Shown piece by piece: positions 1,101-26,537 of a DNA stretch of 45,186 bases. The position numbers and the translations under genes were made by a program. Numbering within the stretch: position 1 is the first letter of the stretch; every line of letters begins with the position of its first letter. The DNA is from Candidatus Saccharimonadota bacterium (lineage in GTDB: Bacteria; Patescibacteriota; Saccharimonadia; Saccharimonadales; Saccharimonadaceae). Under the pieces are notes generated by a model. That model was not told the DNA's origin. It ran no database searches and saw only the letters and a program-made list of their open reading frames with translations. The DNA is taken from the NCBI GenBank assembly GCA_017421325.1, contig JAFOJO010000019.1, positions 1 to 45,186 on the forward strand, in the 5' to 3' direction.

Positions 1101-3455
1101 ATGGAAAGATACGAACCGCTCAAAATCGAACAAAAATGGCAAAAAGTCTGGGAAGAAACCAAGCCCTTCAAGGCTACTGAAAAACCCAGCACACCTAAAA
1201 TGATGCTCGCCGAAATGTTTCCTTACCCCTCTGGTGCCGGCCTACACGTAGGCCACGTGCGCAATTTTACCATTGTTGATGTGCTTACGCGGTTCTATGC
1301 TCAACAAGGCTTAAACGTACTTCGTCCCTTTGGCTACGACACTTTCGGCTTACCGGCCGAAAACTACGCCATTAAAACCGGCACTGCTCCGCAAGATGTA
1401 ACCAAAACTAACATCGCCAACTTCCGTAAACAAGCCAAACGCCTTGGCTATGCCATAGATTGGTCGCGCGAAATCAATACTTCCGATCCGGAATATTACA
1501 AATGGACCCAGTGGTGCTTCCTGCAGCTTTACAAAAAAGGCTTAGCCTACCAAAAAGAATCCTACCAATGGTGGTGCCCAGTAGACCAAACCGTTCTTGC
1601 CAACGAGCAAGTCGAAAACGGCAAATGCTGGCGCTGTGGCCACGAGGTAGAAAAGAAAAAGATGAAACAGTGGTTCTTCAAAATCACCGAATATGCCGAC
1701 GAATTACTAGAAGAAATCGACAATCTCGAATGGCCTGAAAAAATTAAAACTATGCAGAAAAATTGGATCGGCCGCAGCACTGGCGCAGAAATAGGTTTCG
1801 AAGTAGTAGGTGGCGCACCGCATATCACTGTCTTTACTACCCGCCCAGACACTATCTACGGCGCTACTTTTCTAGTGGTAGCCCCGGAATACCCAGGATT
1901 AGATGCACTTCTTACCGACGATACGCGCGAAAAAGTCCTCGCTTACAAAGCCGCTGCCCTGAAAAAATCCGAAATCGAACGCCAAGAAAACAAAGAAAAA
2001 ACCGGCGTCTTTACCGGCTCATACGCTATCAATCCCGCCACCAAGGCCAAAATACCCATCTGGGTGGCAGACTACGTCCTATCCGGCTACGGTACCGGTG
2101 CCATTATGGCTGTGCCGGCCATGGACGACCGCGACCGCGAATTCGCCGAGACCTTCAGCCTCCCCATCGTCGAAACAGAGCTTTGCGACCGCGACAAATT
2201 CGGCACCCCCAAGACCACCTATCGTATGCGCGACTGGCTCATTTCCCGCCAACGTTACTGGGGCTGCCCCATTCCTATCGCCTACGATAGCGAAGGCAAT
2301 CCTCATCCTATCCCAGAAGATCAGTTACCAGTGCTTATCCCAGAGGTAGATGATTATCAGCCAGACAACTCCGGCCGCAGTGCTCTAGCCAAAGCCACTG
2401 ACTGGCTCAAAGTCAATATCTACAACGAAGCCACCGGTCAAGTCGAAGAAATGACCCGCGAGACCGATACCCTAGACGGCTACGCCTGTTCCAGCTGGTA
2501 TCTCTGGCGCTACGCCTCCCCACACGACAAAGAAGCCGCTTGGGATCAAGACGCCATCAAATATTGGGAACCGGTAGATTATTACTGCGGTGGTGACCAC
2601 GCCGTAGCGCATTTATTATATATTCGCTTTTGGTGTAAATTCTTTGCCGACGAAGGCTACCTGCCATTCCGCGAACCCATCAAGCGCTTGCTTTACAATG
2701 GTTACATCAACGCCCCAGATGGCAAAAAGATGAGCAAGAGTAAAGGCAACGTGATAGACCCGCTCGACGTCATCAACGATGGCTACGGCGCCGACACTCT
2801 TCGTACTTACGAAATGTTTATCGGCCCTTACGACCAAGATGCCGCCTGGGACACCCGCTCAGTTGGTGGAGTTTACCGCTTCCTCAATCGCTGTTGGACT
2901 TTAGTATTCGACAAGAACGCTAATGTCTTATCTCGGAGCATACGCGACGACGGGAGCGTACGGAGCGAGGAGCCCCGTAACGACGGGCGCGACGAAGCGT
3001 TCCGAGATAAGAACGTTAGCGTTCGTAACAGGACGATAAAGAAAGTAACCGAAGACATTCATCGCTACAACTTTAACACCGCCGTCGCCGCTTTGATGGA
3101 ATACATCAACGAACTTTATAAAGTCGGCGCAGTTGAAGAAGATTTAATCACGCTCGCCAAACTACTTAAACCCTTCGCTCCACACCTAGCTTCCGAAATG
3201 CTAGAAAAATTAGGCGCGAATGACGAATGGCCAAAATGGGAAGAAAAATATCTCGCTAGCGACACCGTAGAAGTAGTGGTCCAAATCAATGGCAAACTTC
3301 GTGCCAAACTTACAGTAGATAAATCCGACTTAGAAAACGAAGATAAAATCAAAGAACTCGCCCTTGCCGACGAAAAAATCCAAAAATACACCGCAAACGG
3401 CATCAAGAAAACCATTTTCGTGCCAAAAGCCAAGCTATTAAATATAGTCGTTTAA
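1101..3455 (+). CDS. leuS: Leucyl-tRNA synthetase
   Basis: Class I synthetase that charges tRNA-Leu. HVGH (residues 49-52) and KMSKS (543-547) form the ATP site. The CP1 editing domain is present, with the Thr-rich TTRPD strand near 246-250 and GTGAIMAVPAMDDRD further on; the usual His before the conserved Asp of that motif is Met here. The linker from editing domain to catalytic core is short. Length is 784 aa, at the low end for the family. I start at ATG 1101 rather than upstream Met codons because the -10 box lies 7 nt before it and the protein then begins MERYEPLKIE as expected. Residues about 605-641, rich in Arg, Asp and Ser, are encoded by a large palindrome inserted in frame just before the TIKKVTEDI helix of the anticodon-binding domain. 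Confidence 0.97.
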   Translation: MERYEPLKIEQKWQKVWEETKPFKATEKPSTPKMMLAEMFPYPSGAGLHVGHVRNFTIVDVLTRFYAQQGLNVLRPFGYDTFGLPAENYAIKTGTAPQDVTKTNIANFRKQAKRLGYAIDWSREINTSDPEYYKWTQWCFLQLYKKGLAYQKESYQWWCPVDQTVLANEQVENGKCWRCGHEVEKKKMKQWFFKITEYADELLEEIDNLEWPEKIKTMQKNWIGRSTGAEIGFEVVGGAPHITVFTTRPDTIYGATFLVVAPEYPGLDALLTDDTREKVLAYKAAALKKSEIERQENKEKTGVFTGSYAINPATKAKIPIWVADYVLSGYGTGAIMAVPAMDDRDREFAETFSLPIVETELCDRDKFGTPKTTYRMRDWLISRQRYWGCPIPIAYDSEGNPHPIPEDQLPVLIPEVDDYQPDNSGRSALAKATDWLKVNIYNEATGQVEEMTRETDTLDGYACSSWYLWRYASPHDKEAAWDQDAIKYWEPVDYYCGGDHAVAHLLYIRFWCKFFADEGYLPFREPIKRLLYNGYINAPDGKKMSKSKGNVIDPLDVINDGYGADTLRTYEMFIGPYDQDAAWDTRSVGGVYRFLNRCWTLVFDKNANVLSRSIRDDGSVRSEEPRNDGRDEAFRDKNVSVRNRTIKKVTEDIHRYNFNTAVAALMEYINELYKVGAVEEDLITLAKLLKPFAPHLASEMLEKLGANDEWPKWEEKYLASDTVEVVVQINGKLRAKLTVDKSDLENEDKIKELALADEKIQKYTANGIKKTIFVPKAKLLNIVV
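2915..3024. repeat. Palindromic element read in frame inside leuS
   Basis: Outer arms of 23-24 nt (2915-2937 and 3001-3024) match almost perfectly as an inverted repeat (GAACGCTAA and TCTTATCTCGGA blocks on the 5' arm). Two short hairpins sit inside: TACGC/GCGTA (2941-2960) and CCCGT/ACGGG (2974-2987). The unit is GC-rich compared with its flanks and encodes about 37 polar residues. The layout resembles Rickettsia-type palindromic elements that insert in frame into genes; relation to that family is not shown. Confidence 0.8.
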
Positions 3456-6293: not shown

Positions 6294-6440
6294 GCAACAA
6301 TTTCATATTATATAAATACCAGCCATTTTTCATAGTAGTTGTTTTAAACGAAAAACGGCACCGTAAGGAAGTCGATTGTTTGAAACAGCTACGCTGGTGA
6401 AAATATGAGATTGTTGCACCCCTTGCGGTGCCATTTTTGT
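6294..6440 (+). ncRNA. Predicted structured small RNA with loop-to-tail pairing
   Basis: The RNA folds into one long rod: closing stem 6294-6309 with 6402-6417 (15 of 16 pairs), ACCAGC 6318-6323 with 6393-6398, and a 15-bp stem 6335-6349 with 6378-6392 including two G-U pairs. The 28-nt apical loop holds GGCACCGTAAGG (6357-6368), complementary to CCTTGCGGTGCC (6421-6432) in the 3' tail with one G-U. That tail is followed by five U. Loop and tail therefore either form a pseudoknot or compete as a terminator stem. The promoter start coincides with the first stem base. It lies just upstream of the FISUMP gene and could act in cis or be independent. No known RNA family is recognised; a 6S-like rod is one alternative. 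Confidence 0.65.
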
Positions 6441-6449
6441 TAATCCTCA

Positions 6450-6478
6450 TTAACTTAGGTGACACCACAAAGCATAAT
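6450..6478 (+). promoter_or_regulatory. Possible promoter of the FISUMP-1 gene
   Basis: TTAACT (6450-6455), 17 nt, CATAAT (6473-6478). A start near 6485 would leave a 12-nt leader holding the GAGG SD. Weak match; read-through from the small RNA is an alternative. Confidence 0.35.
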
Positions 6479-6496
6479 AAAGTAAGCGAGGTAAAG

Positions 6497-8122
6497 ATGG
6501 GCCATAAATTAGAACAAAATAAAGTAGTAAATAGTAGAACAGATTTCTTCTACTACACATTTCGTAATATTCTCCTGTTTGGTATTCCCCTTCTTATTGT
6601 GTCTGGTTTAGTTTTGTTTCATTTATCTCTTCATTCTTCTGCTACCAATTCCAGTATCTCTAGTTCAGACGATCTAACTATATCTATATATTCTGCCTGC
6701 ACATTATCCAACGTAATCAATAACGAACATAATACCGTAGTAAATGTAGGTACCTATCAGGAAGATATAGGCAAAACAACCATTACCACATTGTGCAATG
6801 ACAGCAATGGGTACAGCGTATACGCCAACGGTTTTTCCAATAATGAATTAGGCAACAATAAGTTAGTAGATCCGGCCTCACCACTAAATGGTATAGAAAC
6901 TGGGTTATCAACTAACGGTCCCACATCTGCTTGGGCTATGAAACTAAATAATATAGAAAATGACCCTTCTTCTACTCCGCCAGTCATAGAGCAAAGTTAC
7001 AACAATGTATATGGGTTAGTGCCAAATAGCTGGGTCAGAGTAGCTTCACTTCCTGCTGTTACCACTGATATGAGCCAAGGCTCTTCTTTCACTACTACTT
7101 ACTCTGTATATGCTAGTTCTAGCCAATATGCCGGAACTTACAAAGGACAGATAAAATACATACTTACTCACCCTCACAGTAGTAACGGAGCGATAATTCG
7201 CAATTTTGAAACTGCCTTTATTATGGCCGGAAAAAATATAGCTTATCAAGACGACAATGGCTCATACTATGCAATGCAGGATATTGACGGTAATATATGT
7301 AATAGCATTACCTATACCGGAGAAATTACCGCTACACAATTAGTGGATACGAGAGACAATAAATTATATTGGGTAGCAAAGTTAGCCGATGGGCATTGCT
7401 GGATGACACAGAATCTAGACTTCGACATAGTTGCCGATGAACAAGATTCTACCAAAATGAAGGTTCTTACCTCAGAAGATACAGATTTGACAGATCATTC
7501 TTTGACCAAAGCTTACTCTCAAGCCAACGGATACAGCTATAATTCTGCCACAGGCGTTACCACTTGGACTCCGGCCAGTTCAGCTAGAACAATCAACTCT
7601 ACCGGTAGTACCGTAACCGACTGGGTAAACTCTAACACTGTTCCATACTCTGCTAGTATAACGAATAATGCTGGCACCGATCACTACTCACTAGGCAATT
7701 ACTACAACTGGACTGCAGCTATAGCTTCCAATAATTCCAGCACCTTAACTAATGATACGCTAAATAATATACAAAATAACCCTAAAAACTCCGTCTGCCC
7801 TAAGGGATGGAGACTGCCCACTATATCAAATCAATCCGAAACGATTGTCGGCTCTACCAATGAATTTGCAAGATTAAATTATCTATATAATAATAACTCA
7901 TCAAGCTCTTATACGGGATTAGGTACATCCCCTCTATACTTTATATTAAACGGTTCTCTGTATAGTAATAAGGTTATTCCTGGTACAACCATGAATTACT
8001 TTTCAAGCACCGTATATAACAACACAAAAATTTATTATTTAGAATTCTACAACGGCGTCCTCAACACTAGCACGCAATGGACTAGAGAGTTCGGAAGAGG
8101 AATACGTTGTCTTGCTAGATAA
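6497..8122 (+). CDS. FISUMP-domain cell-surface protein 1
   Basis: 541 aa from the ATG preceded by GAGG (start chosen over an upstream Met because of this SD). A short basic N-terminus is followed by one membrane helix (about 22-45) that anchors or exports the protein. A Ser/Thr/Asn-rich beta region follows, then the Fibrobacter succinogenes major paralogous domain (about 255-541) with the hallmark DNKLYWVAKLADG, CWMTQNLD, CPKGWRLP and final GRGIRCLAR. This domain has a C-type-lectin-like fold and is common in surface proteins; a ligand is not known. The gene is AT-rich throughout and lies between two large RNA or DNA palindromes, which suggests an acquired cassette. Its C-terminal codons do not show the GC-rich pattern seen in the second FISUMP gene at 24247. 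Confidence 0.85.
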   Translation: MGHKLEQNKVVNSRTDFFYYTFRNILLFGIPLLIVSGLVLFHLSLHSSATNSSISSSDDLTISIYSACTLSNVINNEHNTVVNVGTYQEDIGKTTITTLCNDSNGYSVYANGFSNNELGNNKLVDPASPLNGIETGLSTNGPTSAWAMKLNNIENDPSSTPPVIEQSYNNVYGLVPNSWVRVASLPAVTTDMSQGSSFTTTYSVYASSSQYAGTYKGQIKYILTHPHSSNGAIIRNFETAFIMAGKNIAYQDDNGSYYAMQDIDGNICNSITYTGEITATQLVDTRDNKLYWVAKLADGHCWMTQNLDFDIVADEQDSTKMKVLTSEDTDLTDHSLTKAYSQANGYSYNSATGVTTWTPASSARTINSTGSTVTDWVNSNTVPYSASITNNAGTDHYSLGNYYNWTAAIASNNSSTLTNDTLNNIQNNPKNSVCPKGWRLPTISNQSETIVGSTNEFARLNYLYNNNSSSSYTGLGTSPLYFILNGSLYSNKVIPGTTMNYFSSTVYNNTKIYYLEFYNGVLNTSTQWTREFGRGIRCLAR

Positions 8123-14990: not shown

Positions 14991-17900
14991 TTATATAGCA
15001 AAACTGCGATTTCTTACGTCAGCATAACCAATTTGGTTTAATAGTATTACCCACGTATTTTCCGCCACTGTATTTTCGTTATCAAATATTAATTTGTCTT
15101 CCACCTTCAGCTCCGGCACCCCAAATGCATACCGCTCTGCAGGATTATAGTTATTGACAAATTCATAGTATCTCGCAATATACAAGATGTCTGAGACTGT
15201 TTCTTTATCCAGCCCAGAATACCGCGCCAACATTCCTTCATACGAATTATCCAACGGATTTTCTTGATAATATTCTTCTAAATACGCAGTAACGGCAGAT
15301 TTATCAATCACCCCCATCGATTCCGCCAAAGATTGATCCTCAATAAACCGCTGATAATATTTGGCTTTGTCCCACCCCGGAGCGGCTTGTCCACTTATAT
15401 TATTTCCTGCTACGCAAGACTCCCCACTAATGTATCCAAGATTATTTAAGGAATTAATATTTTCAATTACATCAATACCATCACCAATCAACGGAATTGC
15501 GCCGATCGCTCCATCTACCGCCGCATCGGTATAGGTGTTACCGGTGTTCGCACTAGTAGAGGAATTAATACTCGAAACAATATTGTAATCTGTCACCCCA
15601 AACATTGAAGTCCTACCGTCGCAATAAACTATATATTTTGCCAAATCAGAACCGCCATCAATTTTTACATTCCCATCACTTGTCGCTTGATCAGCAAATT
15701 CATCCTTAAGCACATCAATCACGTCCGCCGGATCGTCATTAATGGTGGCCATGTCCGTCATTACATATGGATTACAATAAGCGTCACCTACCACTCCAAC
15801 CGATGCAAGATATGGGCAAGTTTTTCCATAATAATCACTCGCATTCTCATCCATATTTGGTAAAGTCTTCGCTACGTCATAAGCTGCAGCAGTCGGGCCC
15901 ATTGCGACAACAGAATTAGATACAGCAGAACTACTAGAAGATATTATACCCATCAAAGAACTCGCCGACGTAAAATTCATCAGCTGCGTCAGCAAAGTCC
16001 CCATAAACGTGTATTTAGACGTTGTGTCAAACGGATCTAAACTCTCACGTTCATACCTTGCATAATCTTCCATTACTTGACGCTGTGCTACCGCATAGCC
16101 TTCGTATTTTTCTTTAGTCGCCGGTGAACCACCGTTTGCTCTATGCGCACCACCTAAGTACATATTCCCACCCGAGGTCAGAGCATTGCCTAGATCTACT
16201 CCACCAAGATCCGATACCAAATCACGCGTCCATGCACTAGTAAGTATCGGAGATAATACACTGAACACACCAGCAATAGCTACACCAATGGCAACACTCT
16301 TCAAAATTGCCCCACCTATATCTATTGCTAGTTCAACACAACCATCAACCGCCAGCGCTATCCCAGCCCCACCAGCAACTGAAGTAATTAGCCCGCCAAC
16401 GCACTTAAGCGTATCCACAAGGCCATTGACAGCCTCATATGCAGAAAAAGCTAATTTAGCTATTGTACAACCCTGAAATGCCGTCATGCTTGAGCTTATG
16501 CCACCCATAACCTTATTAATACTTGATGTTAAATTAAAGCTTTGTACGCTTGCGTCGCTCGTATTCACCTTCCCGCCACTATACAACGCCGCTACGCCTT
16601 CCGCTTCCATTGCGGACTTATTCTCATACGTCTTATCACTATACTCGCCCTTATAATCACTCTCGGAACCACCATCCCCATTCACCGATACTTCCGTAAG
16701 TACTTTATCGGTAGTAGTTTTTTTCTCGTTCAAAGTCGTGGAAAGTTCGTGAATTGGCGCATCGTCCCCGTACCCAGCTTTTACTTTATCTGCCGTTTCA
16801 AAATACGCCGTCGCTAGGTTAATAATCTGCAAAGCTTCCGCTGCCGTTACCGCCAAAGTAATTGCACCTATTGCATTGGACACCCCGCATACTATATTTG
16901 CACTAGCAGAGAATTTACTCTCTATATTCTTCATTTTACTCGACAAATCACTGGTATCTCCTCTTTTCATTTTGCCAGAATCTTTAGAACTCTCTTCTTT
17001 TTCATAACCAACAACTTCTCCATCATCATCAGTCTTCTTCTTAGATTCGTCAACTTGCTCACCCTCATTAACAATAGTATCGGTCTTTTCTTCCAACGTT
17101 TCTTTCACCGCCGCCAAGCCATCTCCATCCAACTCTGCTTTTTTGTTCTCGTAACCATTAAACATATTCCGTGTTAGATTGTTATTCTTCAAAAACGCAC
17201 TCATTCTTGTGCCGAACCAGTTAGCAATTTGTCCCCGCCAAGTCATCGAACCGGTATTATACGCGTGGTGAAAATCTGTATCAGAAGAATATATATCATC
17301 AAAAGAAACCGCAACTTTACTGTAAGCTTTACCAGTCGTCGCATCAATACCATCTATATCGCCTAAAGCCTTTGCCGTTTTCGCATCTGCCGTAATTATC
17401 TTAATCTCGCCAGACCCATCATCAAATTTAAGAACTCTCTCACCGTTAAAATCATCATCATATTCAACACCATGCTGCTTCAACTTTTCTTGTTGTTTTT
17501 CGGATATTTTAAATGTTTTACCAAAAATAGTTCCTTTCACAGGGTCTTTCACGCGACCAGAGTCCATTTGTAAACGGAAAAATCTGCTAGACCGTGTATT
17601 TGCCGATACTTGCATCGAATTAAACGTTTCCTGAAACTGTGCTACCAAGCTAAACGGTTGAAAAAGTTGCGAACCACCAATAATTCCCCCCACCCCAAAA
17701 ATCAATCCAAAAATCAACCCAATCGGACCGCCTTTTTTCAGCCAACCCTTCGACTTCTTCTTGCCACCCTTATCGCCTTTGCTACTTTTATATTTACTAC
17801 CCTTGCCGCTACCAGAATATAATCCGCCCGCCTTATTCTCTTTTTCTCGCACACCATCTAACCCACCAGCACCCTGGCTTAAACCATTGCCGGCCGCCAA

Positions 17901-18083
17901 TTTTTCCGCCGACCTCAAACCATCAGCCGCACCACCACCACCGCTGGAACCCACATTTTTATCACGACTAGCTTTTTTGTCGGTACTACCCAAAAACTCG
18001 GGACTAGTATCCTTAAAACCTTCAATTACTTTCTTCGCCGCATCAGACAAACTATCCCTTTCGGCCTCTTCTCCACCATCCAT
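14991..18083 (-). CDS. Large multi-pass membrane/surface protein of unknown function, 1030 aa
   Basis: The N-terminal 115 residues are hydrophilic, Gly/Ser/Lys-rich and end in a very basic stretch (SKYKSSKGDKGGKKKSKGW). A Gly-rich membrane helix follows (about 118-140, GLIFGLIFGVGGIIGG). A large soluble part (about 150-395) has many Asp/Lys residues. Further hydrophobic helices occur near 400-430 (IGAITLAVTAAEALQII) and in a group near 535-640 (SVAIGVAIAGVFSVLSPIL). Several Cys pairs in the C-terminal third (TCPYLASVGVVGDAYC, GESCVAG) suggest an extracytoplasmic domain. I do not recognise a family; a role in export or surface assembly is only a guess. The ATG is 7 nt after TATAAT (leaderless). 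It lies between a small tail-anchored protein and pheS. Confidence 0.85.
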   Translation of the reverse strand: MDGGEEAERDSLSDAAKKVIEGFKDTSPEFLGSTDKKASRDKNVGSSGGGGAADGLRSAEKLAAGNGLSQGAGGLDGVREKENKAGGLYSGSGKGSKYKSSKGDKGGKKKSKGWLKKGGPIGLIFGLIFGVGGIIGGSQLFQPFSLVAQFQETFNSMQVSANTRSSRFFRLQMDSGRVKDPVKGTIFGKTFKISEKQQEKLKQHGVEYDDDFNGERVLKFDDGSGEIKIITADAKTAKALGDIDGIDATTGKAYSKVAVSFDDIYSSDTDFHHAYNTGSMTWRGQIANWFGTRMSAFLKNNNLTRNMFNGYENKKAELDGDGLAAVKETLEEKTDTIVNEGEQVDESKKKTDDDGEVVGYEKEESSKDSGKMKRGDTSDLSSKMKNIESKFSASANIVCGVSNAIGAITLAVTAAEALQIINLATAYFETADKVKAGYGDDAPIHELSTTLNEKKTTTDKVLTEVSVNGDGGSESDYKGEYSDKTYENKSAMEAEGVAALYSGGKVNTSDASVQSFNLTSSINKVMGGISSSMTAFQGCTIAKLAFSAYEAVNGLVDTLKCVGGLITSVAGGAGIALAVDGCVELAIDIGGAILKSVAIGVAIAGVFSVLSPILTSAWTRDLVSDLGGVDLGNALTSGGNMYLGGAHRANGGSPATKEKYEGYAVAQRQVMEDYARYERESLDPFDTTSKYTFMGTLLTQLMNFTSASSLMGIISSSSSAVSNSVVAMGPTAAAYDVAKTLPNMDENASDYYGKTCPYLASVGVVGDAYCNPYVMTDMATINDDPADVIDVLKDEFADQATSDGNVKIDGGSDLAKYIVYCDGRTSMFGVTDYNIVSSINSSTSANTGNTYTDAAVDGAIGAIPLIGDGIDVIENINSLNNLGYISGESCVAGNNISGQAAPGWDKAKYYQRFIEDQSLAESMGVIDKSAVTAYLEEYYQENPLDNSYEGMLARYSGLDKETVSDILYIARYYEFVNNYNPAERYAFGVPELKVEDKLIFDNENTVAENTWVILLNQIGYADVRNRSFAI

Positions 18084-18090
18084 ACTATAT

Positions 18091-18119
18091 ATTATATAAC
18101 AAGCTTATGTTTTTACCAA
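18091..18119 (-). promoter_or_regulatory. Promoter of the 1030-aa membrane protein (leaderless)
   Basis: TTGGTA (18114-18119), 17 nt, TATAAT (18091-18096), 7 nt, ATG. Confidence 0.7.
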
Positions 18120-18127
18120 AACAAATT

Positions 18128-18367
18128 TTAGAAAAATACAATCGAAATTACCGACAAAATCGCTAATACGATTAATACTACCCACACCCAACCGAATCTA
18201 CTAGTCTTCTTAAAATCTTGCACATATTCCGAATCCTCCGCAAAATCCGGCACTTCTTCGTCGCCCACCACGCCCGAAGCTTGCAAAGCCTTTTCGCGCA
18301 AATCCGCACTAATCCTACGCGAAAGTTCATTATCTTGTTGATTGTTTTTATTTACTATTATACCCAT
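18128..18367 (-). CDS. Small tail-anchored membrane protein, 79 aa
   Basis: Begins MGIIVNKNNQQDNELSRRIS, acidic in the middle (EEVPDFAEDSEYVQDF), and ends with one membrane helix (WVWVVLIVLAILSVISIVFF) at the extreme C-terminus, so most of it faces the cytoplasm. The start is set at the ATG preceded by AGGAAAG; longer forms would overlap the promoter. It shares a symmetric divergent promoter with the aquaporin-like gene, and the 1030-aa membrane protein starts 44 nt downstream from its own promoter. Function unknown. Confidence 0.75.
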   Translation of the reverse strand: MGIIVNKNNQQDNELSRRISADLREKALQASGVVGDEEVPDFAEDSEYVQDFKKTSRFGWVWVVLIVLAILSVISIVFF

Positions 18368-18398
18368 CTTCTTTCCTAAATAAATTATTAACTTTTTC

Positions 18399-18427
18399 AT
18401 TATAACACACAAAAACCGTGTTATAAT
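18399..18427. promoter_or_regulatory. Palindromic divergent promoter pair
   Basis: ATTATAACAC (18399-18408) and GTGTTATAAT (18418-18427) form a perfect 10-bp inverted repeat with a 9-bp centre. Each half gives TGT-TATAAT for one direction: rightward for the aquaporin-like gene, leftward for the 79-aa gene. Each -10 box occupies the position, 17 bp away, where the opposite promoter would have its -35 box. The two polymerases cannot bind at once, and the symmetry would also suit a dimeric regulator. Confidence 0.65.
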
Positions 18428-18456
18428 AATAGAAATTATTATTTAAGGAGGTCACA

Positions 18457-19383
18457 ATGGCGACTAAAAAGTCGAAATCGTCGGCTAAGTCTACCAAGGC
18501 TAAGACGACAAAACCTAAAACTGCCGAGAAGTCTGTCAAGAAGTCAGAAATCGAGGCTCCTAAAACCAACACGGTGGAAGAAATAAAAGCCACAACTAGC
18601 GCTAAAAAATCTTGCCTCAGCGGATTTTTTGCTAAAAAATATGAGGAAAAAGAAAGTATCCTCACTATCTTCAAAAACCACAAATTCTACGGCGCTTTGC
18701 TAGGCGAAGTTATCGGTACCATGTGCATTGCACTATTGTTGCTTTCACTTTCACTCATGGGCATTGCCAATATTGCCATGTATGCTTTTGCAATTATCGC
18801 AGTACTAGTAGCAGTTTACGCCTTTTCTGGCGCCTGTCTCAACCCAATCATCACCGTAGGCATGATGGCTTCTCGCCGCATGTCCGTCATTCGTGGTATC
18901 ATGTACATTATTGCGGAAATACTTGGCGCTTGGCTCGGTTGGCTTATCATCAATGGCTTCCACCTAGCTGGCGGCGACACCGCTTATGACGTGCCCGCTA
19001 TGACCGCTATCGCTGAAGGCGGCTTCTGGATCGTTACCATGGTAGAGCTATTTGGCGCAACCGTCATTGGCTTCTTCTTCGCCCGCGCCATCGATTACAA
19101 GCGCAGCGTATTTACCTTTGCCGCAGTAGTAGCCGGTGGTATGGCTCTTGCCGTCCTAGTAGGCTATGTAGCATCTGCTGCTTTCCTCGGGTTAAATAGC
19201 AACTTTGTCTTCAATCCATCCGTAGCTTTGATGATGCAAATCTTCCCTACCGCTGGTGAAAACTTCGGCGAAATCCTCGGTGGTATCTGCCAAGCTTTAT
19301 CTATCTATGTCCTTATTCCAATGATTGGTGGCGTAGTTGGCTTCTACTTGTCAGATTTTTCCAAGAAGCTATCTGAAGACTAG
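18457..19383 (+). CDS. MIP-family (aquaporin/glycerol facilitator-like) channel
   Basis: 308 aa. A Lys/Ser/Thr-rich cytosolic N-terminus of about 75 residues precedes six membrane helices. The two half-helix loops carry NPI (129-131, in SGACLNPIITVG) and NPS (253-255, in FVFNPSVALMM) instead of the canonical NPA pair. The spacing and the preceding AFSGACLNP are typical of the family. Altered NPA motifs are known in divergent MIPs, so passage of water, glycerol or another small solute is inferred only. SD AAGGAGG lies 6 nt before ATG. The basic N-terminal tail is unusual for MIP proteins and resembles the Lys/Ala tails on ribosomal proteins in this window. Confidence 0.88.
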   Translation: MATKKSKSSAKSTKAKTTKPKTAEKSVKKSEIEAPKTNTVEEIKATTSAKKSCLSGFFAKKYEEKESILTIFKNHKFYGALLGEVIGTMCIALLLLSLSLMGIANIAMYAFAIIAVLVAVYAFSGACLNPIITVGMMASRRMSVIRGIMYIIAEILGAWLGWLIINGFHLAGGDTAYDVPAMTAIAEGGFWIVTMVELFGATVIGFFFARAIDYKRSVFTFAAVVAGGMALAVLVGYVASAAFLGLNSNFVFNPSVALMMQIFPTAGENFGEILGGICQALSIYVLIPMIGGVVGFYLSDFSKKLSED

Positions 19384-22685: not shown

Positions 22686-24014
22686 TTACATCAAGGATTC
22701 AAAATATAGTTTTAATTCTTCACCAATATATTCATCTTTTTCATATATTTCGGATAACTCTTTCAAGAACTTTGGGGCTAGACTTTCGAGTCTCGCCTTG
22801 CGGTATTCTTCCCACTTGGCACTTTCACTTTCGCTCAAACTTTGCGGGAAGTTGCGCCCTTTGTAATGCAGCAATAGTTCTGGCAACCTTGGATCATGAA
22901 AATCCGGGTGAAAATCCGCTAGTTTATTTGCATCCGCATTTCGCACTGCCGCCACTTTTATTCTATCCGTATCATTCAGAAAACCATCATATAGTGCCGC
23001 TTCCGGCTCTACCGCTGGCGGAAATTCCGGCCGGTTTTCCATTTCGCTTCGCATTTTTTCCGCAAATTCTGGATGCGCTAGTAGATCTTGCAAATTTTTC
23101 TCCACAATTTCCCGCGTTAAGCCAATTTTATTCCAGCCATTTTCTTTTTCTAGTACCCCCATCGGCGCCACTGCTGGACATTTATTGAAACACAGCTCTT
23201 TCACGATTGGAAAGGTTTTTTCCATGTCTACATCATTAATATTGTAGCGCAAATCATACACCAGCACATTTCCATTTCGTCCGCTAGTTAACGGAAACAC
23301 TACCGTAGTCTTATTAAATTCATTACTATATCTACCAGATGCATATACAAACGGTTTTTTATTTTCTAGGTTTACTATTTTTTTAATTTCTTTTTTATCG
23401 CGCATCTTAAGAAGAAAATCAAAAAGCTCTGGTTGTTTTTCACGAATCAATTTCGCCACCGCAATTGTAGCATACACATCACTCAGGGCATCGTGCGCAT
23501 GTTCATGCGCTACACCGTTTAGTTTCGTAATTAGTTCCAGCCGGTTTGTCGGCGCACCATCTTCGCGAAACGGCCAATTAATCCCTTCCGGCCGAAGCGC
23601 CCGCGTCAACCGCACTACGTCTAATATATCCCAGCGACTCCGCCCATCTTTCCATTCCCACTCGTATGGATCATAAAAATTCCGCCAAAGAAGCGCCCGC
23701 ATAAATTCATCATCAAACCGCACTGTATTATAGCCTACCGCTATAGTATTTGGTACAAACACTTCTTCGGTTATAAACTTTACAAATTCTGCTTCCGATA
23801 TGCCATCACGTAAAGTATCTTGCGGCGTAATCTTGGTTACCATTATTGCGCTAGGGCTAGGGAGAGCGTCTTCCGTCATTCTTACTAATATATTCACTGG
23901 CTCACCTATCGGCTTTAGCTCCATATCCGTCCGCTGCCCAGCAAACTGCATCACGCGATCTTCCCGCGCGTTTAATCCCGAAGTCTCTAAATCATAAAAG
24001 AAAAATGTTTTCAT
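22686..24014 (-). CDS. sbcB: Exodeoxyribonuclease I
   Basis: 442 aa against about 475 in E. coli. DEDDh exonuclease domain with DLETSG (8-13), YNTVRFDDEFMRALLWRNFYDPY (the ExoI-type second motif) and HAHDALSDVYAT (near 171-182). It is followed by the SH3-like and helical C-terminal domains that give ExoI its C-shape and high processivity on single-stranded DNA in the 3' to 5' direction. It acts in recombination and mismatch repair. A promoter TTGAAT-17-TGA-TATAAG at 24079-24107 gives a leader of about 58 nt whose AAGGAG is too far from the ATG to be an ordinary SD. Confidence 0.92.
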   Translation of the reverse strand: MKTFFFYDLETSGLNAREDRVMQFAGQRTDMELKPIGEPVNILVRMTEDALPSPSAIMVTKITPQDTLRDGISEAEFVKFITEEVFVPNTIAVGYNTVRFDDEFMRALLWRNFYDPYEWEWKDGRSRWDILDVVRLTRALRPEGINWPFREDGAPTNRLELITKLNGVAHEHAHDALSDVYATIAVAKLIREKQPELFDFLLKMRDKKEIKKIVNLENKKPFVYASGRYSNEFNKTTVVFPLTSGRNGNVLVYDLRYNINDVDMEKTFPIVKELCFNKCPAVAPMGVLEKENGWNKIGLTREIVEKNLQDLLAHPEFAEKMRSEMENRPEFPPAVEPEAALYDGFLNDTDRIKVAAVRNADANKLADFHPDFHDPRLPELLLHYKGRNFPQSLSESESAKWEEYRKARLESLAPKFLKELSEIYEKDEYIGEELKLYFESLM

Positions 24015-24246
24015 AAATTTTCGTTCTCTTTCTCCTTACCGCTGTTTTTAACATACGTCTTTCCCACTTCCTGCACTCCTTATATCACATCACACAAAAA
24101 CATTCAACCCATACTATATGACTTATTACAATGTTTTTCTCCGTCTTAGCTTACATCTCCATATCTACTGACTTGCTCCAGTTCAAAACTACAACACTAT
24201 CCACTCTTTTCTCCTTCTTTGAGAAGCGGGGGAAGGGCTAGCGGAG
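24015..24246 (-). other. 232-nt intergenic region after the FISUMP-2 gene
   Basis: Holds the sbcB promoter in its downstream half. Directly after the FISUMP-2 stop there is a purine-rich AAGGAG followed by GTG and a 17-codon open frame (starting MDSVVVLNWSKS), too short to identify. No T-run terminator is visible after FISUMP-2. No copy of the FISUMP-2 C-terminal DNA and no reverse transcriptase is present here. Confidence 0.4.
24079..24107 (-). promoter_or_regulatory. Promoter of sbcB
   Basis: TTGAAT (24102-24107), 17 nt, TGA-TATAAG (24079-24087). Predicted start near 24072. Confidence 0.55.
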
Positions 24247-24455
24247 CTACTGCCTGAGGAGGCAGCGAACTGAGAACCCGTACCTACGGGAGTCGCCACT
24301 GGCGGAATCGACATCCGACGAATTGAAGGTCAGAAGCCGGGCGTTACTGCTACTACTGCTGGAAGTAGAGGGCCAGTAGAAGCCGTAGCTGCCTCCATAG
24401 TAGAACGAACCACTATTGTAGTAGCCCGCGAGCAGAAAGTTCGGAGCAGTGCCAG
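24247..24455 (-). other. Candidate variable region (VR) of a diversity-generating retroelement target
   Basis: The 3' terminal part of FISUMP-2 codes for the ligand face of the lectin-like fold. It switches abruptly to GC-rich DNA with many codons ending in C (TAC, AGC, GGC, TTC, GCC, GAC, TCC), as expected when AAC codons of a template repeat are mutated at A. A 6-bp stem with 4-nt loop (24249-24264) lies at the very end, in the position of the hairpin/cruciform that follows VR in the Bordetella phage system. The template repeat and reverse transcriptase are not in the window. Confidence 0.5.
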
Positions 24456-25761
24456 CTTTTATGGCATTATACATAGCGGCACCAGTAGGAGAAGTACTAC
24501 TATCATAAGTCTGTATTGAATTTGAACCACCAAGTGCAATCATCAAAGCACGGAAATCTGTAGCCTCAGCCGCAGTCCCACTACCATTATAAGTACTCGG
24601 CAACTTCCAGCCCTTAGGACAAATGCTATAAGGTGCATCAGTATTGTCTGTAGATATAGATCTGCCAGAACCCAATGTAGCTACATCCCAAGAATAGTAA
24701 GAATAACACGGTATGTTTTGCCCGCTAGCCCCACAACCAGTAGTATTGCCACTATTATAAACATATGCATAGTTATTGATAGAGAATTGACTACTATCGG
24801 TGAGATTATTATTATCAGAATTCTTAACAGCTGAAGCCGGAAGCACTAACGTGTCATTAGTCTTCGTTAAATTATTACTAGTTGTAAAACTGCTAATATA
24901 GCTACTATCTACATCGGTATCATCCGCAGAAAGCACCGTGCCACCCGCCAAATCCAAATTTTGCGTCATCCAACAGTTGCCATCAGCAAGTTTCGCTACC
25001 CAATACAGTTTATTATCCCTTTCATCTATTAATTGTAATTTTGACGGAATCAATGAATCATCTACTGCATTACATATACTACTTGTCATATCTTGCATCT
25101 TATAATAACCGTTTACTTGCTCTGCACCCGAAGCTATAAAAGCATCTAAAAGCGACGTCGGTCCCACATTAGTCACCGCATAAAAATTTACTACATTAGT
25201 ATAAGTGCCAGAAGCTTGTGTAGCTCCAGCCTTGGCCGCGATTTTAAATTGCACTGAGCTGCCAGCGTTGCTATTTGCACTAGCTAATTTCACGCCAGTA
25301 CCAGTATAAAGTGGAAGGCCTGCATAGCCAGCGCTAGTACTACCTTGATTACCACTAACCCAATTAGAACCAGAATCCGTAGAATATGAATACCCCCATT
25401 TATTATCGTCAAAACTTGCAAGAGTTGCCACATTAGAAGAAAGAGAAGCAAAACTATTGCCACCATTCTTCAATTCCGTAGTGACGTTAGCAGTATTCCC
25501 TACCGTAGAAAACAAATCATAGCCATATGCTGCATTGGTAGCTACGTTCACCGTAATAACGTTACTGTCCGATCCGGTATTAGGTGAAAGATTATTAATT
25601 ACCAAATCACTATTAGATAAAGTCACATTCAAAGTGGGTTCAAACGTAAAACCCACCCCCACATTATTCTGGTAGCTCAATGCCCCCACATTAACACCAC
25701 CAGCCCCCACTACCCCCAAAGTTATCAAACCGAATATTTCAAACTTGACACGCCTTCTCAT
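24247..25761 (-). CDS. FISUMP-domain cell-surface protein 2, with candidate variable region
   Basis: 504 aa. Signal peptide (about 1-28, RRRVKFEIFGLITLGVVGAGG), a Ser/Asn/Thr-rich beta domain (about 30-205), then a FISUMP C-type-lectin-like domain with DNKLYWVAKLADG and CWMTQNLD (near 248-270), CPKGWKLP and the closing RRYGFSVRCLLRQ. The last 65-70 codons are different from the rest: GC-rich and full of NNC codons, with GGSYGFYWPST and Ser/Asn/Tyr/Asp positions. The stop codon is capped by a CTGCCT-cctc-AGGCAG hairpin. This pattern is typical of variable regions of diversity-generating retroelements. Leaderless start: TGC-TATAAT, 6 nt, ATG. Confidence 0.88.
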   Translation of the reverse strand: MRRRVKFEIFGLITLGVVGAGGVNVGALSYQNNVGVGFTFEPTLNVTLSNSDLVINNLSPNTGSDSNVITVNVATNAAYGYDLFSTVGNTANVTTELKNGGNSFASLSSNVATLASFDDNKWGYSYSTDSGSNWVSGNQGSTSAGYAGLPLYTGTGVKLASANSNAGSSVQFKIAAKAGATQASGTYTNVVNFYAVTNVGPTSLLDAFIASGAEQVNGYYKMQDMTSSICNAVDDSLIPSKLQLIDERDNKLYWVAKLADGNCWMTQNLDLAGGTVLSADDTDVDSSYISSFTTSNNLTKTNDTLVLPASAVKNSDNNNLTDSSQFSINNYAYVYNSGNTTGCGASGQNIPCYSYYSWDVATLGSGRSISTDNTDAPYSICPKGWKLPSTYNGSGTAAEATDFRALMIALGGSNSIQTYDSSTSPTGAAMYNAIKAGTAPNFLLAGYYNSGSFYYGGSYGFYWPSTSSSSSSNARLLTFNSSDVDSASGDSRRYGFSVRCLLRQ

Positions 25762-25808: not shown

Positions 25809-26537
25809 CTATTCTGCATTTTTCAACATTTCGTCATAGTCCATGCCATAATACGCATACTGTAAACGCATATATGCATCATCTAGCCCCGCCGCCAAAG
25901 ATTTAAGCGGTTCCTCATTTGCCTTAGTCATTACTATAAATTTTAGTGGCTTATTTTTACCACCACATATTTCCCGGCTTTCACCATAGGCCAGTTCGCC
26001 CGGTATAGCAATTTCGCGAATACCGTTCAGTTTCATACCTTCTACCCCCAAGTTCCACCCCTCTATCATACCAAGCGAAGCATCCAAGATTTTCGCGAAA
26101 GCCGTAGGATTATCATTATTATCAAAAGAAGAATCGAAAATGCTTTCGTCTGCACACCAGCCCACATAATATGCCAAATATTTAGTGCCCTCCTTAATTT
26201 CTTCACCACTACCATCCTCTAGATCACGCACCTGCACACCATTTTCATTGGCCGCAGTTTCATTATAGGCCGTAATTTCTGATTTATATTTAATAAACTT
26301 ATCGTAATCTTCCTTTGTCTTTTCAGAGAACTCTGCCGCCTTAGCATTATAGGCAGATTCGTATTCTGCAATTTTTGCTTGATCTACCTGAGGATTCGTT
26401 TCACTAGTAGTTTTAGATTTGCTACCATTTATCACAATTGCGATATAGCTTGCAATAATAGACCCTAGCATTATCACTGCAATCAAAATTATAAAAAACC
26501 GCTGTTTTGGGCTAGTCTTTAGCTCTTTTTCATCCAT
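25809..26537 (-). CDS. Membrane-anchored FKBP-type peptidyl-prolyl isomerase
   Basis: 242 aa. One N-terminal membrane helix (about 15-36), a helical, charged linker (about 50-95), then an FKBP domain (about 100-210) with YLAYYVGW, IFDSSFD, MIEGWNLGVEGMKLNGIREI and IPGELAYGE, which are the standard active-site strands. It catalyses proline cis-trans isomerisation outside the membrane and probably helps fold secreted or surface proteins such as its FISUMP neighbour 48 nt downstream. It uses a leader with an SD (GTGGAG, 8 nt before ATG), unlike the leaderless neighbour. Promoter TGG-TATAAT at 26567-26575. Confidence 0.9.
   Translation of the reverse strand: MDEKELKTSPKQRFFIILIAVIMLGSIIASYIAIVINGSKSKTTSETNPQVDQAKIAEYESAYNAKAAEFSEKTKEDYDKFIKYKSEITAYNETAANENGVQVRDLEDGSGEEIKEGTKYLAYYVGWCADESIFDSSFDNNDNPTAFAKILDASLGMIEGWNLGVEGMKLNGIREIAIPGELAYGESREICGGKNKPLKFIVMTKANEEPLKSLAAGLDDAYMRLQYAYYGMDYDEMLKNAE

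Follow-up and report, generated by a model that had tools for sequence, protein, structure and literature searches.

A very probably orphaned variable repeat of a diversity-generating retroelement in a FISUMP-domain gene of a Saccharibacteria genome

The 3′-end of a FISUMP-domain gene in a 45,186-nt contig of a Candidatus Saccharimonadota bacterium (the whole contig is called the window below) is very probably the variable repeat (VR) of a diversity-generating retroelement (DGR) whose other parts were deleted. The repeat is homologous to a template repeat (TR) at the syntenic locus of a sister genome and differs from it specifically at template adenines; neither the cassette nor the TR is present in the assembly to which the window belongs (contig C9; 861 kb, 40 contigs, 98.5% complete). 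We characterize the gene as most likely an orphaned DGR target, probably a frozen one. Coordinates are given in Table 1.

Table 1. Features of the target locus in the window (L243, sister contig)
Feature	Position	Strand	Remarks
FISUMP-domain target gene	24247..25761	-	504 aa; ORF call, TIGR02145 and predicted structure
Predicted N-terminal TasA/pilin-like sandwich	residues about 40-200 of target		structural neighbours of model
Predicted C-terminal lectin-like FISUMP domain	residues about 243-501 of target		TIGR02145, model, structural neighbours
FKBP-type gene	25809..26537	-	conserved neighbour upstream of target; synteny anchor
SbcB-like exonuclease gene	22686..24014	-	conserved neighbour downstream of target; synteny anchor, at this site across the genus
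DGR variable repeat, in all likelihood orphaned	24218..24438	-	homologous to TR L243:4366-4583(-)
6-bp hairpin CTGCCT-CCTC-AGGCAG	24250..24265	-	abuts stop codon 24247-24249; probably incidental
3′ flank of VR, left edge of cassette site	24125..24246	-	homologous to L243:2155-2277
Putative deletion scar	24117..24124	.	site without L243:2278-4807 (accessory ORF, RT and TR)
Right edge of cassette site	24028..24116	-	95.6% identical to L243:4808-4897

The target gene and its predicted protein

The target scored 49.0 bits against TIGR02145, above the curated cut-off of 41.65, and 31.9 bits against PF09603, slightly below the cut-off of 33.9. The predicted structure of the whole protein had a mean pLDDT of 86.5, and the C-terminal domain modelled alone reached 93.3. 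Foldseek by itself returned no significant PDB match to this domain; the best of its candidates was the C-terminal domain of Legionella Lcl, with a modest Z of 6.4 (rmsd 4.2, 113 aligned), and C-type lectins were present among the candidates with Z of 3-5, also modest values. The predicted model and these matches agree on a lectin-like fold of the C-terminal part, as the earlier note had suggested. A VR located at the 3′-end of a gene whose product has a predicted C-type-lectin fold fits a DGR target, and the predicted structure fits a surface-displayed binding protein.

Structural neighbours of the N-terminal sandwich in the model are TasA-like and pilin subunits (Z of at most 8.1, a value that a common arrangement alone may explain). 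The TasA/pilin-like half suggests that such lectins may sit on fibres of the epibiont surface.

An adenine-specific footprint at the 3′-end of the gene

We saw that the VR, comprising the last 64 codons of the target and about 29 bp beyond its stop codon, was 81% identical in DNA to the TR of the sister contig (L243) over 221 bp. The differences were concentrated at template adenines: 23 of the 54 TR adenines were changed (10 to G, 9 to T, 4 to C), against 12 of 163 non-adenines (P=1.8e-8). The non-adenine differences were at the level of species divergence and mostly transitions; when the roles of VR and TR were exchanged as a control, no adenine enrichment was seen. As the L243 TR occupies the same locus, the result does not depend on the choice of TR. 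Comparison of this TR with its own VR gave the pattern of an intact system, with differences at 18/54 adenines and 1/164 other positions. The L243 and window FISUMP proteins are only about 52% identical; therefore, the TR that wrote the window VR should be a relative of the L243 TR rather than the L243 TR itself.

A template restored from the window VR matched a stretch in another genome (G007), which is the TR of an intact DGR. In the window VR, 15 of the 18 Asn codons of the G007 TR were replaced, against 5 of the 40 other codons (P=3e-7); all 18 have C or T as the third base, and the pyrimidine was kept in the window VR. With an adenine-specific footprint against both the L243 TR and the homologous G007 TR, the sequence comparison strongly supports a genuine DGR variable repeat at the 3′-end of the target. 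The claim of the earlier note, a DGR variable region within the lectin-like FISUMP domain, was thus borne out, with a correction to the interval proposed, 24247-24455: the repeat begins 17 bp inside it and passes the stop codon by about 29 bp.

One could argue that the target is an ordinary FISUMP paralog, that its binding face owes its divergence to normal mutation and selection, and that shared ancestry alone accounts for the likeness to DGR targets; FISUMP is indeed a large paralog family in this genome, with many members that carry no footprint. Such a reading is hardly credible given adenine-specific differences from the sister TR that vanish in the swapped test, the third-base pattern at the Asn codons of the G007 TR, and the lack of a footprint in the window's other FISUMP gene.

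Composition and hairpin

The earlier note was also right that the last 65-70 codons turn GC-rich, with many NNC codons, and that the other FISUMP gene of the window lacks these traits. GC content of the target was 0.407 in codons 1-437 but 0.562 in the last 67; GC3 likewise rose from 0.31 to 0.69, and the frequency of C at the third codon position from 0.117 to 0.493. All three rises are sharp and fall in the last 64-67 codons; the maximum GC of any 67-codon stretch further upstream was 0.468. The same jump was observed in the intact DGR target of L243 (GC from 0.431 to 0.562, third-position C from 0.117 to 0.507), and neither a jump (GC from 0.388 to 0.363) nor an adenine footprint in the second FISUMP gene (about 6401-8122, + strand).

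The hairpin that had been noticed at the stop codon is present, though it abuts the codon and does not overlap it. It is probably incidental, and we set it aside as support for a DGR and as a DGR cis element: stems at least as good were found in 10 of 306 GC-rich 40-mers of the window, which is near chance, and the intact locus of L243 does not share it but has a different small one (GCTAGC-TCC-GCTAGC) at the corresponding place. Among 22 genuine DGRs examined, stems of at least 7 bp followed the VR in five; the stem in the window has 6 bp.

The intact cassette of the sister locus and its loss

A scan of named genomes gave relatives that belong to Ca. Saccharibacteria, mostly from ruminant guts. 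One Ca. Saccharibacteria contig, L243 (CAMKRV010000014.1), carries the same locus as the window, in the order target, VR, 294-aa ORF, reverse transcriptase (RT), inverted TR, SbcB and LDH. The RT at this orthologous locus has the DGR motifs IGNLTSQ and YVDDF ([IVL]GxxxSQ and YxDD); the accessory ORF (2298-3182, + strand) had no match to any Pfam family. RTs of three other loci (L142, L248 and L272) form a clade with that of L243, and their TRs share a backbone type. Since the SbcB DNA of the window and of L243 is 88.7% identical, the sister is another species.

Window positions 24996-24125 align to L243 1435-2277 and positions 24116-24028 to L243 4808-4897, so that 2530 bases of L243 (2278-4807) are absent from the window. 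Only about 230 bp separate the stop of the target from the start of the exonuclease gene, and no RT is present there. We infer that a deletion, rather than a gain, explains the difference between window and L243. At its edges the L243 block bears two short and imperfect repeats (TTGCAATGAATAG and TTGCAAAATAG); the deletion may have made use of them. Collapse of repeats during assembly is an unlikely source of this structure, as VR and TR are inverted and the clean junction lies in unique sequence outside both.

The following sequence of events would account for these observations. In the ancestor, and still at the same locus of the sister, an error-prone RT would copy template RNA adjoining the target gene, and random bases would be put in opposite template adenines during copying; the cDNA would then replace the 3′-end of the gene, changing residues of the lectin-like domain. 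By analogy with known DGRs, such mutagenic retrohoming would have made the window VR. In the window lineage, a deletion of roughly 2.5 kb would have removed accessory gene, RT and template, and the variant written last would have stayed behind as an ordinary open reading frame. This variant would now be fixed, and its product may still bind a surface ligand.

Cells bearing the cassette could exist in the same population as the window genome. If alleles with and without the cassette coexist there, the assembly could have taken the deleted one while diversification continues in the cassette-bearing cells; long reads showed exactly such variants at the degenerate DGR loci of Thiohalocapsa PB-PSB1 (PMC10907252), and a cassette is present in the sister. 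The sister, however, is a different species by its SbcB divergence, and we consider coexistence unlikely, though with an appreciable chance; it would refine the explanation by cassette loss rather than oppose it.

The genome of the sister (G060) appears to have a second TR/VR pair (L320/L321, contig C3:1711-4197), with a different FISUMP backbone; it seems to carry at least two DGRs.

No template in the genome of the window

The earlier note had placed template and RT elsewhere in the genome of the window, and had proposed a search for an A-biased copy of the template next to an RT. No such copy was found, and by this search the version of a target still active in trans fails: the cognate TR and the cassette are absent from the assembly, and the sole RT serves its own, unrelated TR and target. 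A direct copy of 24220-24480 was not present in the genome; a degenerate template pattern (each VR base either itself or A, with at most three mismatches) and BLAST with the restored TR both recovered the VR itself only. The block missing relative to L243, searched in the same genome, returned the window VR and weak similarity to another DGR, with no copy of the cassette.

RVT_1 had exactly one match in this genome (G000), on contig C40, where an intact DGR occupies positions 16394-19231 (L018:8394-11231). It consists of a 785-aa FISUMP target with a VR, a 348-aa helix-turn-helix ORF (L007:2451-3497, - strand), a 381-aa RT with motifs IGNLTSQ and YVDDF, and a TR inverted relative to its target and RT. 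An AAC-rich stretch beside the RT has an 88% identical copy, the two being TR and VR; 25 of the 27 substitutions between them fall at template adenines. We rejected the C40 TR as the template of the window VR, the likeness being at protein level only, without a close backbone. No Avd-type accessory was recognised beside the RT of either L243 or C40.

Ends of contigs C3, C7, C11, C21, C22, C26, C30, C32 and C37 were located in or near FISUMP genes, several of them within a VR; such ends are expected if repeats or hypervariability break assembly. As the assembly is split into 40 contigs, frequently within FISUMP VRs, a TR could lie in a gap. The target could then still be diversified in trans, either from a TR (with or without an RT) in the unassembled part or by the C40 RT acting on an unassembled second template; one DGR RT is indeed at hand, and trans-acting DGRs are known (PMC10907252). 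We nevertheless regard this as improbable, given 98.5% completeness, no TR found by pattern or BLAST, no cassette remnant, a native cassette site that is closed in the assembly, and a C40 TR that mismatches the window VR at 81 of the 198 non-adenine positions of the aligned stretch.

The locus across the genus

The locus was compared between FKBP and SbcB or, on contigs that end within it, beside one of the two. A full DGR is present there in four relatives (L243, L143/G035, L145/G028 and L213/G015); four others, like the window, have FISUMP-like genes without a DGR (L212/G004, L214/G009, L215/G003 and L225/G012); in still others, e.g. L216/G001, L219/G006 and L226/G020, neither is present. 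Of the targets without a DGR, those of G004 (P=1.1e-6) and G003 (P=3.9e-4 against the nearest TR) also show adenine footprints against TRs of the genus, although many TRs were compared here, as for the paralogs and public homologs below, so that single weak P values are unreliable. Given these two footprints, orphaning has probably occurred more than once. The RTs at the locus fall into three clades, in different species; therefore, cassettes have also been gained, exchanged or regained there.

Orientation of the TR relative to RT and target varies within the genus (L018, L142, L143 and L243 versus L147), inverted TRs being common.

Relation to known DGRs

The BPP-1 DGR (mtd-VR/TR-avd-brt) has a lectin-fold target, a C-terminal VR and adenine-specific changes. 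Two points set the DGRs described here apart from BPP-1: the accessory beside the RT is a helix-turn-helix ORF or an ORF unmatched in Pfam, neither of them matching Avd, and the TR frequently lies in the opposite orientation to the target. The intact FISUMP DGRs of gut Saccharibacteria (L243, L142, L143, L145, L213, L248, L272 and C40) have target family, RT motifs and 3′-end position of the VR in common with the window; unlike the window, they retain RT and TR, and outside the adenine sites their VRs hardly differ from the TR.

DGRs are enriched in CPR genomes (PMC8144416), and partial or degenerate DGR loci are already known. Paul et al. (2015) described partial DGRs, consisting of target and VR only, in DUSEL4 Nanoarchaeota, and offered a fossil or a remote target as explanations (PMC4372165). 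As there, the window has an adenine-mutagenised VR in a target gene and no RT at the site; in contrast, the host is a bacterium (Saccharibacteria), the target carries a FISUMP domain, and the intact cassette at the syntenic sister locus allows loss in place to be shown comparatively. In Thiohalocapsa PB-PSB1, degenerate DGR loci, missing RT or TR, occur alongside complete DGRs in one genome, as they do here, and structural variants with and without the machinery have been reported (PNAS 2024, PMC10907252); there the genome has 7.95 Mb and the loss is tied to transposons and MITE-like repeats, whereas a plain deletion would suffice in the 0.86-Mb genome here. The open-access literature, which does not reach Paul et al. 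2017 on CPR DGRs, yielded no study of FISUMP-target DGRs in gut Saccharibacteria.

What is added here is the before-and-after comparison at one locus and the number of orphan VRs. The window and L243 form a with/without pair for DGR retirement at a single syntenic locus, with an intact cassette in the sister, a clean loss in the window and a VR footprint that is still legible; the locus opens the testable question of the fate of a hypermutated surface lectin once its mutator is gone. Less expected is the setting: a small genome rich in FISUMP genes, footprints without templates, and repeated gain and loss of cassettes at one locus.

FISUMP paralogs and footprints without template

PF09603 had 52 matches in the genome of the window, corresponding to over 40 FISUMP genes or gene fragments in 0.86 Mb. 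About a dozen paralogs, not counting the C40 target and the window gene, carry an adenine footprint when set against TRs from other species (P below 5e-3, with the reservation on weak single P values given above) and have no template in the assembly; many others show no footprint. Nine VRs of the same genome share one backbone (on C3, C32, C21, C25/C12, C11, C26, C14, which has two, and C36). Diversity among them was 0.377 at columns that are adenine in the genus TR and 0.107 at the other columns (P=6e-11); upstream diversity was 0.229 against this 0.107, i.e. the backbone is more conserved than the upstream gene region. No TR for this family was found in the same assembly, nor did any of the matches in G060, the sister genome, provide one.

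Among the public FISUMP homologs fetched, 54 had a 3′ flank longer than 4 kb and no DGR detected locally, the search being confined to the locus; 15 of the 54 carry an adenine footprint (P below 1e-3, under the same reservation). As such homologs carry the footprint, a scan that detects DGRs only through their RT or TR would overlook most of the once-diversified genes in genomes of this kind.

One could speculate that DGRs of gut Saccharibacteria serve as generators for a genomic archive, in which loss of the cassette fixes a diversified lectin, which is then duplicated and kept, with new cassettes seeding further targets. We offer this tentatively, as a possibility well below even odds; if true, dozens of once-hypermutated, now frozen lectins in a 0.86-Mb epibiont genome would make up a standing repertoire for binding.

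A phage origin of the target was rejected: tblastn of the target gave no match in annotated phage records, and the L243 RT gave none in viral contigs, in a search that reaches close relatives only. Matches in BFVD were FISUMP proteins of uncultured Caudovirales phages.

One and the same FISUMP gene, with an identical VR, was present on L031 (C12) and L032 (C25), either by duplication or as unmerged assembly copies.
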